This document shows, in pieces, positions 19,417-20,750 of a stretch of DNA of 64,000 nt (position 1 is the first letter of the stretch; every line of letters starts with the position of its first letter). Source of the DNA: Flavihumibacter soli (lineage in GTDB: Bacteria; Bacteroidota; Bacteroidia; Sphingobacteriales; Sphingobacteriaceae); contig NZ_JAAFZB010000091.1 of NCBI RefSeq assembly GCF_010692725.1, positions 62,001 to 126,000 of the forward strand, read 5' to 3'. The translations under genes were made by a program, and so were the position numbers. The notes under the pieces are model-generated. The model was not told the origin of the DNA. It saw only the letters and a list, made by a program, of their open reading frames with translations, and did no database searches.

Positions 19417-19626
19417 TTACCTCTTAAATGATAAACCTTTTGCTTTCAAGGCATTTGCAAGTTTTGGAATTGCACTTTTCCCAATGCCATGAAATTGCAG
19501 GATTTCTTTTTCTGTAAATTTTGCCAATTTCTCCAGGGTATCAATACCGTTTTTTTCAAGTGCGCGTTTTGCTGGTGCATAAACCAGTGATAAGAAACTT
19601 TGGTCTTGCAATTTTTTATTACTCAT
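19417..19626 (-). CDS. Small helix-hairpin-helix protein (RpoA C-terminal-domain-like)
   Basis: A 69-residue protein. PAKRALEKNGIDTLEKLAKF, then FHGIGKSAIPKL and KGLSF, make a clear helix-hairpin-helix motif similar to the RNA polymerase alpha C-terminal domain and to stand-alone bacterial HhH proteins of unknown role. It probably binds DNA non-specifically. Directly upstream on the same strand is a decayed GIY-YIG gene (19630-19794), whose remnant ends at the start codon of this gene. That suggests the HhH gene stood next to an incoming cassette. Confidence 0.8.
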   Translation of the reverse strand: MSNKKLQDQSFLSLVYAPAKRALEKNGIDTLEKLAKFTEKEILQFHGIGKSAIPKLANALKAKGLSFKR

Positions 19627-19629
19627 TCA

Positions 19630-19794
19630 TTTGTGTATTTAGAAAATCGATTTCGTCAGGATTCATGGTCAATATTTGGATGTGTAGATCGTATGGTCAA
19701 TGAAATTGTATTCAGTAAGGCACCTGCTTACCTCATCAGGTAGCCAAAATAATATCTATCAGAAGAGTGAATATAAAATATAAACGCTAAACAT
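19630..19794 (-). pseudogene. Decayed GIY-YIG nuclease gene
   Basis: Translating the minus strand from an ATG at 19794 gives MFSVYILYS, then after a shift SDRYYFGY, then after another shift CLTEYNFIDHTIYTSKY and ILTKSIF. These align in order with the intact gene next door (FYLYILHSAS, EKYYIGY, RLFEHNHSERNTYTSKH, VLKKCI). At least two frameshifts and several stops break it. It has no terminal tRNA-derived segment. Confidence 0.7.
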
Positions 19795-19814
19795 CTACAT
19801 CGGAAATTTTCACA

Positions 19815-19848
19815 ACAAAAAAGCCCTACAGTTCTGTAAAACTTATTG
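19815..19848 (-). terminator. Degenerate terminator copy in the tRNA-Asn array
   Basis: On the plus strand AAAAAAGCCCTACAGTTCTG and TAAAACTTATTGC correspond to the terminator hairpin after the true tRNA-Asn (20487-20522), but the arms are mutated. On the minus strand a run of T follows. Confidence 0.45.
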
Positions 19849-19849
19849 C

Positions 19850-19934
19850 TTCCCGACATGTCATGACTCAACCAGCAACCCTATGATTAATCCCGACAGG
19901 TCGTCCCGATGTATCGGGATAACCAGCTGAGCTA
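19850..19934 (-). pseudogene. tRNA-Asn remnant, copy 3 (most decayed)
   Basis: On the minus strand the D-arm TAGCTCAGCTGGTT is kept, followed by a palindrome-bearing insert (TCCCGATACATCGGGA). TTAATCATAGGGTTGCTGGT, the altered 3' anticodon stem and T-arm start, comes next. The anticodon and acceptor are missing, so it cannot be a tRNA. A reading frame across it (VEALAQLV) matches the end of the GIY-YIG protein. Confidence 0.65.
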
Positions 19935-19954
19935 ATGCCTCAACAGAATTTAAA

Positions 19955-19986
19955 TAAAAAAAGCCTCACATCTCTGTAAGGCTTTT
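19955..19986 (-). terminator. Terminator copy in the tRNA-Asn array
   Basis: On the minus strand AGCCTTACAGAGATGTGAGGCT followed by a run of seven T; nearly identical to the hairpin after the intact tRNA-Asn. Confidence 0.7.
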
Positions 19987-20073
19987 GCTTCCCGACAAGT
20001 CGTCCCGATATATCGGGAAACCAGCGACCCTCTGATTAATCCCGACGCGTCGGGACTCTAACCAGCTGAGCTA
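19987..20073 (-). pseudogene. tRNA-Asn remnant, copy 2, overlapping the GIY-YIG 3' end
   Basis: On the minus strand TAGCTCAGCTGGTTAGAG (D-arm) is followed by TCCCGACGCGTCGGGA in place of the 5' anticodon stem. Then come TTAATCAGAGGGTCGCTGG and a second palindrome block in place of the T-loop and acceptor. The anticodon GTT is therefore lost. The last codons of the GIY-YIG gene are made of this D-arm and first palindrome. Confidence 0.75.
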
Positions 20074-20338
20074 GTTCCTCCACCGTAGAGACCTCGGTTA
20101 TAATTCTTTCGATTACCAGCCGGCTTTTAGTTTTCTTAACCACTTTTTCAATCTTCATGGCAACCCCTCGGCTTTCTCCCAAGGCGATGCATTTTTTCAG
20201 CACCCATGGACGATGCTTTGAAGTATAAGTATTTCTTTCGCTATGGTTGTGCTCAAATAGGCGTTTTTCGGCGTCCTCTGTATATCCGATATAATATTTC
20301 TCTGAAGAAGCGGAATGTAGAATATAGAGATAGAACAT
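20036..20338 (-). CDS. GIY-YIG nuclease with tRNA-derived C-terminus
   Basis: The ATG at 20338 gives 100 residues starting MFYLYILHSASSEKYYIGYT, which carries the YIL and YIG signatures, followed by the conserved Arg (EKRLFEH) and the late Lys/Arg helix (MKIEKVVKKTK). This is a single-domain GIY-YIG (UvrC-type endonuclease) protein. The C-terminal 14 residues, EELAQLVRVPTRRD, are encoded by the D-arm of a degenerate tRNA-Asn plus the first arm pair of a palindrome, with the stop just beyond it. The fold ends before this tail, so the tail is probably not needed for catalysis. Its neighbours are tRNA-Asn fragments on both sides, which suggests a homing or parasitic cassette tied to tRNA-Asn. 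Confidence 0.85.
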   Translation of the reverse strand: MFYLYILHSASSEKYYIGYTEDAEKRLFEHNHSERNTYTSKHRPWVLKKCIALGESRGVAMKIEKVVKKTKSRLVIERIITEVSTVEELAQLVRVPTRRD

Positions 20339-20350
20339 AAAACACTGAAC

Positions 20351-20382
20351 GCAAAAAAGCCTCACATCTCTGTAAGGCTTTT
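20351..20382 (-). terminator. Terminator copy in the tRNA-Asn array
   Basis: AGCCTTACAGAGATGTGAGGCT then TTTTTTG on the minus strand; it duplicates the hairpin after the true tRNA-Asn and precedes the GIY-YIG start codon by about 15 nt. Confidence 0.7.
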
Positions 20383-20383
20383 G

Positions 20384-20470
20384 CTTCCCGACAAGTCGTC
20401 CCGATATATCGGGAAACCAGCGACCCTCTGATTAATCCCGATTCATCGGGACTCTAACCAGCTGAGCTAG
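20384..20470 (-). pseudogene. tRNA-Asn remnant, copy 1
   Basis: The minus strand keeps TAGCTCAGCTGGTTAGAG and TTAATCAGAGGGTCGCTGG exactly as in the intact gene. CATCTGACTG is replaced by TCCCGATGAATCGGGA, and the T-loop/acceptor half is replaced by a block containing TCCCGATATATCGGGA. The 5' acceptor strand is replaced by TTGAGGC. It is therefore not a functional tRNA. Confidence 0.75.
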
Positions 20471-20486
20471 GCCTCAACAGAACTTA

Positions 20487-20522
20487 AAATAAAAAAAGCC
20501 TCACATTTCTGTAAGGCTTTTG
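20487..20522 (-). terminator. Terminator after tRNA-Asn
   Basis: On the minus strand AGCCTTACA-GAAA-TGTGAGGCT, a 9-bp stem with a GAAA loop, followed by seven T. It is the parent version of the three hairpin copies further downstream. Confidence 0.85.
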
Positions 20523-20596
20523 CTCCCGAAGCTGGGCTCGAACCAGCGACCCTCTGATTAACAGTCAGATGCTCTAACCAGCTGAGCTATTCGGGA
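20523..20596 (-). tRNA. tRNA-Asn (anticodon GTT)
   Basis: Full cloverleaf on the minus strand: acceptor TCCCGAA with TTCGGGA, D-arm GCTCAGCTGGTTAGAGC, anticodon stem CTGA/TCAG around loop CTGTTAA, T-arm GCTGGTTCGAGCCCAGC, discriminator G as expected for Asn. This is the only intact copy in the array. Confidence 0.97.
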
Positions 20597-20750
20597 ATCT
20601 TTATTTATCCTGGTTATCAAACCCTAAACGTTTTGTCAAACTTGCTTCGACTTTGAGATGCTTTATCGGCTTCTCCCGTTTGGGAATGCAATATTCGGGA
20701 TTTAAAATTATTAATGCAATATTTGCGGAAAGATTTTTTAAAATAATTTT

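Follow-up and report, generated by a model that had tools for sequence, protein, structure and literature searches.

A stretch of 64,000 nucleotides from Flavihumibacter soli (contig NZ_JAAFZB010000091.1, positions 62,001 to 126,000; hereafter the window, meaning the whole stretch analysed) carries on its minus strand an array in which an intact tRNA-Asn gene is followed by remnants of the same gene and by open reading frames (ORFs) of a small GIY-YIG nuclease. We lean, with some reserve, towards reading this array as a degraded and partly amplified free-standing homing-type element of the GIY-YIG kind, dedicated to the tRNA-Asn gene. The reading draws on the anatomy of the array, on the repeated occurrence of related nuclease genes beside tRNA genes, on the agreement between nuclease lineage and tRNA type, and on palindromes found at recurrent positions in the tRNA remnants.

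The tRNA-Asn array and its relatives

The initial annotation, made from the sequence alone, described one intact tRNA-Asn and three remnants with an intact and a decayed GIY-YIG gene on the minus strand, and this composition was borne out by ARAGORN, Rfam, PF01541 and three-frame translation (Table 1). Read on that strand, the order is tRNA-Asn, terminator, remnant U1, terminator, the ORF with remnant U2, terminator, remnant U3, a diverged terminator and the decayed GIY-YIG copy. The YILYS and SSDRYYFGYLMR pieces of the latter lie in different frames, with stops. Within positions 19600-20700 only 20523-20596 scores as tRNA in Rfam, and U1, U2 and U3 do not. The tRNA-Asn itself matches the tRNA-Asn of 15 other genomes with 100% identity across 75 nt.

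Table 1. Features of the tRNA-Asn array (positions are those of the window)
Feature	Position	Strand	Basis or remark
Intact tRNA-Asn(GTT), presumed functional	20522..20596	-	ARAGORN; Rfam tRNA 70 bits
Intrinsic terminator of intact tRNA-Asn	20491..20519	-	sequence
Remnant U1 of tRNA-Asn	20383..20469	-	D-arm and 3' blocks present, 5' acceptor strand gone, 2 palindromes
U1 anticodon-arm palindrome TCCCGATGAATCGGGA	20436..20451	-	10 nt of arm replaced
U1 T-arm palindrome TCCCGATATATCGGGA	20399..20414	-	
Terminator copy behind U1	20353..20382	-	
Small GIY-YIG nuclease ORF, 100 amino acids	20036..20338	-	PF01541 E=2.9e-13; translation; model
Remnant U2 of tRNA-Asn	19987..20073	-	overlaps ORF end
U2 anticodon-arm palindrome TCCCGACGCGTCGGGA	20040..20055	-	tRNA bases 26-35 replaced
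U2 T-arm palindrome TCCCGATATATCGGGA	20003..20018	-	
Terminator copy behind U2	19955..19986	-	
Remnant U3 of tRNA-Asn	19848..19934	-	more eroded than U1 and U2
U3 palindrome TCCCGATACATCGGGA	19904..19919	-	
Decayed GIY-YIG copy (approximate span)	19640..19815	-	three-frame translation

The remnants differ in their degree of erosion. U1 and U2 are identical at 114 of 117 positions and hold exact copies of TAGCTCAGCTGGTTAGAG and TTAATCAGAGGGTCGCTGGTT, which occur elsewhere in the window only in the tRNA-Asn and always on the minus strand. Their terminators share one change relative to that of the tRNA-Asn. In both, a 16-nt palindrome of the form TCCCG..CGGGA stands in place of tRNA bases 26-35 and a second palindrome lies in the T-arm. 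U3 has a single TCCCGA..TCGGGA palindrome, 2 mismatches in the 3' block and a different second substitution. The proposal that every unit keeps the D-arm and a tRNA segment, a copy of the same terminator and TCCCGA-type palindromes thus describes U1 and U2 accurately, but U3 is more eroded, its terminator has diverged and it has just one palindrome. Nor are the anticodon half and the acceptor half replaced as had been thought; in U1 and U2 the palindromes stand for the anticodon arm on its 5' side and for a portion of the T-arm, and the 3' acceptor strand TCGGGA is retained while the 5' acceptor strand is absent.

Exact matches of 18 and 21 nt, together with recurrence in other genera, exclude a chance origin of the remnants. 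The C-terminal tail of the ORF, ELAQLVRVPTRRD, is the D-arm of U2 (ELAQLVR) followed by the palindrome (VPTRRD) read in frame, and the stop codon TAA derives from the former anticodon loop of U2. The initial annotation had pointed to LAQLVR-type tails, and alignment excludes that these are unrelated to tRNA-Asn. In one related locus (L027) the Asn-lineage tail LAKLVRVPNLQD persists as a peptide though the DNA palindrome and the 3' part of the tRNA are no longer intact, which may be a sign that the protein has a use for its tRNA-derived end.

The window protein was searched against 150 related genomes and gave matches in 70. The locus set was composed of the listed matches at E<=2.9e-6, except G144:C5, which is cut at a contig end, and of nine loci from a scan of named genomes (Pedobacter, another Sphingobacteriaceae, Prolixibacter, Polaribacter, a Chitinophagaceae metagenome-assembled genome (MAG) and an uncultured Bacteroidetes MAG). 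Without redundancy, and including the window locus, this amounts to 121 domain hits at 94 loci. Same-strand tRNA sequence, whole or fragmentary, adjoins 85 of the 94 (82 by blastn at E<=1e-3 within 300 bp; L076, L095 and L110 by eye). The proposal of a GIY-YIG cassette with a tRNA-derived end, a copied terminator and palindromes in its remnants, found again and again beside tRNA genes, is thereby supported. An intact same-strand tRNA lies upstream within 300 bp in 65 of the 94 loci, at a median of 51 bp from tRNA end to domain. Genomes of such size hold about 45 tRNA genes, so that less than 1% of random positions would be equally near to one. A tRNA was called only downstream in 10 loci, one of which (L039) is a remnant miscalled by ARAGORN, leaving 9, and on the opposite strand in one (L069). 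After relabelling, the neighbouring tRNAs comprise 15 anticodon types and 11 amino acids, several at single loci.

Two ARRANGEMENTS were recognised among the loci. In class I, to which the window belongs, the intact tRNA is followed by the ORF and then the remnant, the usual unit being intact tRNA, terminator, nuclease ORF, tRNA remnant, terminator. In class II (L038, L067, L100, L103, L104, L108, L112, L113, L114) a remnant with a native 5' end precedes the ORF and the intact tRNA comes last; here palindromes are found in the D-loop or the anticodon arm, frequently as CCTGCC..GGCAGG or TCCGCC..GGCGGA. The layout is confined neither to this locus nor to tRNA-Asn but recurs in a broad family whose lineages are tRNA-type-specific and which includes tandem arrays and this mirror form with an upstream remnant. 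In L028, L039, L211 and L239 ARAGORN calls palindrome-bearing remnants tRNA-Phe, Gln, Ile or Phe(AAA), and genome tRNA tables may contain such false tRNA genes.

More than one domain hit is present in 17 of the 94 loci, some of these hits being parts of a single broken copy. In genomes assembled as one contig, three arrays hold 7.0, 8.4 and 6.3 units of 358, 399 and 363 bp with 98-99% matches, and each has one or two intact tRNAs of its type near one end. The repeat of L222 starts at base 47 of the intact tRNA-Met, just past the palindrome position, which fits multiplication of the unit by recombination between tRNA 3' parts, in one case of the three. In Pedobacter zeae, two tRNA-Asn loci roughly 15 kb apart (L051 and L052) both carry the element and, by eye, similar flank over roughly 130 bp too; one has a single ORF and the other has two, both with an internal stop.

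Among 19 congener genomes no match to the window protein was better than 1.6e-11, and the congener matches that were fetched adjoin Met, Asp, Leu, Ser or Val tRNA. Proteins 71-81% identical to it were found in Pedobacter and another Sphingobacteriaceae. The scarcity in congeners and the close Pedobacter homologues suggest lateral movement or many losses, judging from sequence comparison. At the same tRNA-Asn locus, ten congeners have no GIY-YIG domain in 3.5-4.5 kb and nine have no remnant in the next 300 bp, but G018 carries ORF-less remnants with palindromes. In the comparison with such empty congener sites the upstream flank and the tRNA align and the downstream flank does not, so that the exact insertion ends are not fixed. 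ORF-less remnants occur at tRNA-Asp in G018 and G011 and at tRNA-Asn in G018, G030 and G041, and no GIY-YIG domain is present in 2.8-5.0 kb around the remnants of these four genomes. Remnants without a GIY-YIG gene, which the initial annotation had named as contrary evidence, do therefore exist; as the genomes concerned hold family members elsewhere, we read them as ORF loss and not as refutation.

Nuclease lineage, tRNA type and palindromes

The protein tree was built from 90 domain rows from 89 loci over 78 columns, and 42 of its 87 inner branches were left open. It omits L023, L075, L099, L104 and L116 (domain below 60 amino acids or with N); L047 has no label, L111 was relabelled Pro, and L076 and L095 were labelled by eye. 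Mapped on this tree, the tRNA label requires 20 changes when the least possible is 14 and the shuffled mean is 62.5, none of 200 shuffles being as low; 14 changes suffice for labelled rows alone. The 15 Val rows form one starred branch, the 17 Met rows need 2 changes, and the Leu(TAA), Arg(CCT) and Ser(GGA) rows are compact. Asn needs 5 changes overall, with 12 of 15 rows on one starred branch together with the window protein and one unlabelled row. In a second set, consisting of the top 40 loci listed for profile A2 minus two repeats of L053/L054, the best protein match predicted the tRNA type in 37 of 38 further loci, and the remaining one (L213) reads tRNA-Asn by eye; these loci belong to the same order and often to the same genera, so that they test consistency more than independence. 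Protein clade, judged by these counts, predicts tRNA type almost perfectly.

The active-site residues Y16, G18, R26, H30 and E64 are conserved in 89-90 of 90 rows and Y5 in 86 of 90. The ratio of nonsynonymous to synonymous substitution (dN/dS) was 0.07-0.40 in 11 of 12 unsaturated pairs, and the nucleases are mostly under purifying selection. The PF01541 domain covers residues 1-73 of the 100 amino acids, and the predicted model of residues 1-91 is a single domain with a mean predicted local distance difference test score of 92.5. Pfam matches of the ORF are confined to GIY-YIG and T5orf172, with no HUH tyrosine transposase. UPF0213 (1ywl, E 1.7e-4) and SLX1/HIGLE are the nearest structures by sequence; the top Foldseek rows are likewise HIGLE/SLX1 and UPF0213 (best E 1.3e-3), I-TevI and UvrC ranking later. 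A phage origin was considered, but no tblastn relative at E<=0.01 was found among 50,697 phage records; the match to PHROGs homing endonucleases is weak (E 0.002-0.006), and two relatives match NCBIfam grpIintron_endo weakly, far below the cut-off.

Palindromes were assessed in 86 hits with a labelled upstream tRNA, of which 53 could be anchored at the 3' end and the other 33 were excluded from the arm count. A perfect inverted repeat with arms of at least 6 was present in 51 of the 53 anchored remnants (37 of 39 loci). Control windows of equal length, taken 450 bp downstream, had such a repeat in 18 of 52 cases and intact tRNAs in 9 of 53, and shuffles reached the observed arm length in 236 of 3180. 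Stronger evidence than arm length is given by the junctions. Bases 1-25 and 36 onwards are kept in 9 of 16 Asn-labelled loci and, among second-set Asn loci where an intact tRNA was called, in 6 of 10. Met remnants retain a single base past the anticodon and lack the following 10 in 7 of 17 Met-labelled loci and in 6 of 9 such second-set Met loci, two more sharing the right junction. Val remnants lose bases ~29-45 and Asp remnants bases 39-50 (two loci), and T-loop bases 58-62 are replaced in three loci, one each of Ala, Asn and Met, and bases 58-63 in a single Asp locus. Eight distinct 16-nt Asn inserts share their outer five pairs and differ at the inner two, which co-vary, with one T-G, and six 16-nt Met inserts show a paired change at pairs 5 and 6. 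Such paired changes could stem from selection for pairing or from repeated capture of palindromes that were already perfect.

Palindromes of TCCG type were found in 14 of 14 tabulated Met loci and in 2 of 42 others (Fisher p 2e-11, a value that is too small since related loci are not independent). The table was made by hand for 56 of the 94 loci, the rest having no clear palindrome or not being entered; L048 and L095 (TCCC type) and L071 (Met, TCCG type) stand outside it. Within each of five single genomes (G071, G044, G103, G119, G135) the Met element is of TCCG type and the Asn or Ala element of TCCCG or CCCCG type, and palindrome type hence goes more with nuclease lineage than with host genome. 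The idea that the target is replaced by palindromes can accordingly be kept as far as their presence goes, but the replacement is not random, as place and sequence type go with the lineage of the nuclease.

A proposed homing-type element and its alternatives

On our best reading the elements would work like phage SegB with one lineage per tRNA type, and we infer cleavage, mobility and the role of the palindromes. The tRNA gene is taken as the probable target of the nuclease because nuclease lineage agrees with tRNA type. The nuclease would cleave its cognate tRNA gene at or close to the anticodon loop and perhaps also in the T-loop, and the break would be repaired from the element-bearing chromosome, whereby an intact tRNA and the ORF are copied in. 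The essential tRNA would thereby be kept and the old 3' part of the host gene would stay downstream as a remnant. The palindrome would remove the cut or recognition site in the remnant, making it an uncuttable target copy that serves as the element's own homology arm. Tandem arrays would arise when the intact copy is cut now and then and the repair is misaligned, and once the ORF dies palindrome-bearing remnants such as U3 and those of G018 may persist as fossils. Making the palindrome itself the element end, by exact insertion in the anticodon, was not adopted, since a second T-loop palindrome is frequent and the mirror class has D-loop palindromes.

Several observations weigh against this reading. 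The chief one is that the intact tRNA beside the element is unaltered; its sparing would require an assumed recognition of flanking sequence or weak cutting. An altered intact tRNA as the source of immunity was rejected given the identical tRNA-Asn in 15 other genomes. The 100-residue protein has no separate C-terminal DNA-binding domain, which enzymes of the I-TevI/SegB type do have, and one very close pair has a dN/dS of 1.28 (dS 0.021). The agreement with tRNA type could partly reflect vertical descent, and nine of the 94 loci show no tRNA trace (L066, L087, L102, L106, L109, L115, L117, L118, L119). Of the tandem arrays, that of L221 starts at base 8 and the repeat of L220 does not reach the intact tRNA. 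A tRNA-Asp terminator is common to the occupied G010 and the ORF-less G007 loci, a misfit with an element which brings that terminator. Arm length alone is a weak measure given its controls, 33 of the 86 remnants are uncounted for want of an anchor, and a few repeats among the 51 counted lie off the tRNA-site palindrome (L060, L077). The palindrome is absent or decayed in L045, L116 and L027 and in second-set L204, L212, L218 and L226, all four labelled Asn, to which the Met locus L227 at a contig end may be added as lacking one of that kind. Both exceptions to palindrome type, L038 (Asn) and L104 (Leu, in G119), are TCCG-type.

The palindromes might instead be a separate mobile patch, dispersed like repetitive extragenic palindromic (REP) sequences, inserting at hairpin loops and tolerated in dead tRNA remnants, the nuclease being unrelated. 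Of 13 palindrome copies in the genome of the window only four are at this array and nine lie in other dispersed repeats, and TCCCGATNNATCGGGA occurs in 30 of the 150 related genomes with, by eye, no evident link to the nuclease. We consider this patch unlikely all the same, since the exact palindrome is missing from the other 120 genomes, yet an inverted repeat is present in 37 of 39 anchored remnant loci, at a position that recurs per lineage and of a sequence type which tracks nuclease lineage inside five single genomes. A comparable standing is given to the view that the protein is an ancient, vertically inherited housekeeping nuclease linked to tRNA, engaged in upkeep of tRNA gene copies or cruciform resolution and without homing. 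Purifying selection, the nearness to UPF0213 and to SLX1, a structure-specific nuclease, and matches of profile A2 in 201 of 300 genomes of the order, which may include a subfamily without tRNA, would all suit such a role. What speaks against it is the patchy distribution (70 of the 150 related genomes have a match, and the 19 congeners have none better than 1.6e-11), the decayed copies and ORF-less remnants, and recent tandem arrays of 6-8 units with only one or two intact tRNAs of the type.

Slightly less probable still is a remnant that functions as an RNA part of the nuclease mRNA, as its 3' end in class I and its 5' leader in class II, where it would stabilise, process or repress the message, the palindromes retaining a stem and blocking tRNA processing. 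Hairpin pairing is preserved by paired changes, the remnant sits where the ORF ends, with a terminator behind it, ARAGORN still accepts some remnants as odd tRNAs, and T4 segB and other homing genes are controlled by RNA hairpins, according to PMC2988022. Against this, the Asn and Met lineages replace only half of the anticodon arm, so that no cloverleaf results, the remnants in five loci are not tRNA at the Rfam gathering score, palindrome position varies by lineage and the mirror class has its remnant upstream.

Among known systems SegB is the closest parallel. PMC13096335 describes this phage GIY-YIG enzyme as cutting inside tRNA genes and driving tandem amplification, with the motif RAWTSGAAC at 23 of 83 sites. 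The reverse complement of this motif would seem to resemble the T-loop GTTCGAATC, one of the two places where palindromes mostly sit, the other being the anticodon arm. Common to both are a GIY-YIG nuclease adjoining tRNA genes and tandem amplification, of tRNA and nuclease in SegB, and in T4/T6 the junction shows microhomology between segB at its 3' end and a tRNA at its 5' end (PMC13096335, PMC2988022). Unlike SegB, the genes described here are chromosomal genes of Bacteroidota encoding single-domain proteins of 100 amino acids, with one lineage per tRNA type and palindrome-altered remnants, and their arrays multiply remnants and not functional tRNAs. The family may thus be likened to SegB in its way of working, yet its proteins have one domain instead of two, and any relation to the phage enzymes by sequence is putative.

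The comparison extends to other systems. GIY-YIG endonucleases of group I introns have their ORF in a tRNA gene whose function is kept; here the tRNA would be kept by duplication and not by splicing, and no group I intron was found at the Rfam gathering score in L051, L024, L063, L098 and L222 or up to E 1 in positions 19600-20700 of the window. Integrative elements with tRNA attachment sites restore the tRNA and leave a remnant, but the ORF list of the window has no integrase-length ORF between the units, and tandem units at other loci are ~360-400 bp. UPF0213 (YhbQ-like) and SLX1 nucleases, nearest to the window nuclease by sequence and fold, have to our knowledge no tie to tRNA genes. RAYTs are tyrosine transposases; they resemble the present case in that a small nuclease gene is paired with palindromic DNA and differ in that the nuclease here is GIY-YIG. 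Among the open-access papers that the searches listed, no account was found of tRNA-linked GIY-YIG elements on bacterial chromosomes or of palindrome-altered tRNA remnants.

Neighbouring features and wider meaning

A GIY-YIG subfamily without tRNA (L106, L109, L115, L117, L118) adjoins palindromic repeats in inverted copies or is enclosed by them; in L118 repeats of 32 nt, 97% complementary, flank the gene on either side, and in L106 both arms of the longest inverted pair are on one side. This recalls REP/RAYT pairs, but with a different nuclease. The second small GIY-YIG gene in the genome of the window (L001, G000:C83:26200-26421) is in a cluster holding 9 of the 10 genome copies of GTCATTGCGAGGCACGAAGCAATCTC, counted with up to 3 mismatches. 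In the same genome TCCCGATNNATCGGGA lies near the tips of other stem-loop repeats (L009, L013, L014, L015, L016), as if exchanged at hairpin tips. Palindrome abundance as a nuclease marker or mobilisation signal was dropped, no tie to nuclease presence being evident by eye. Just past the array, the ORF at 19417-19626 resembles a helix-hairpin-helix or RNA polymerase alpha C-terminal domain, both below the curated cut-off, and a match to the BTnc231 small RNA (E 0.005; 22.9 bits, with the cut-off at 80.4) was judged a chance hairpin resemblance.

One may speculate more broadly, and more tentatively than for the array itself, that these loci represent a class of chromosomal selfish elements in Bacteroidota, with GIY-YIG nucleases of ~100 amino acids whose lineages are locked to one tRNA type, which spread through cuts made in the anticodon loop of tRNA genes and which carry a palindrome-protected tRNA decoy as homology arm and immunity site. 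If this were true, those small GIY-YIG nucleases in the tree that have dispersed palindromic repeats around them would form another branch of the partnership between nuclease and palindrome. The remnants explain some odd tRNA calls and ORFs with tRNA-derived peptide ends in Bacteroidota, and their palindrome marks make the supposed cutting positions readable from sequence. Every cell has tRNA genes, which are conserved and essential, and nucleases each tuned to one tRNA type would therefore offer a natural toolbox of site-specific nucleases of very small size. The family would, if the reading holds, also be a clear case of a selfish element which spares its host by duplicating the target.

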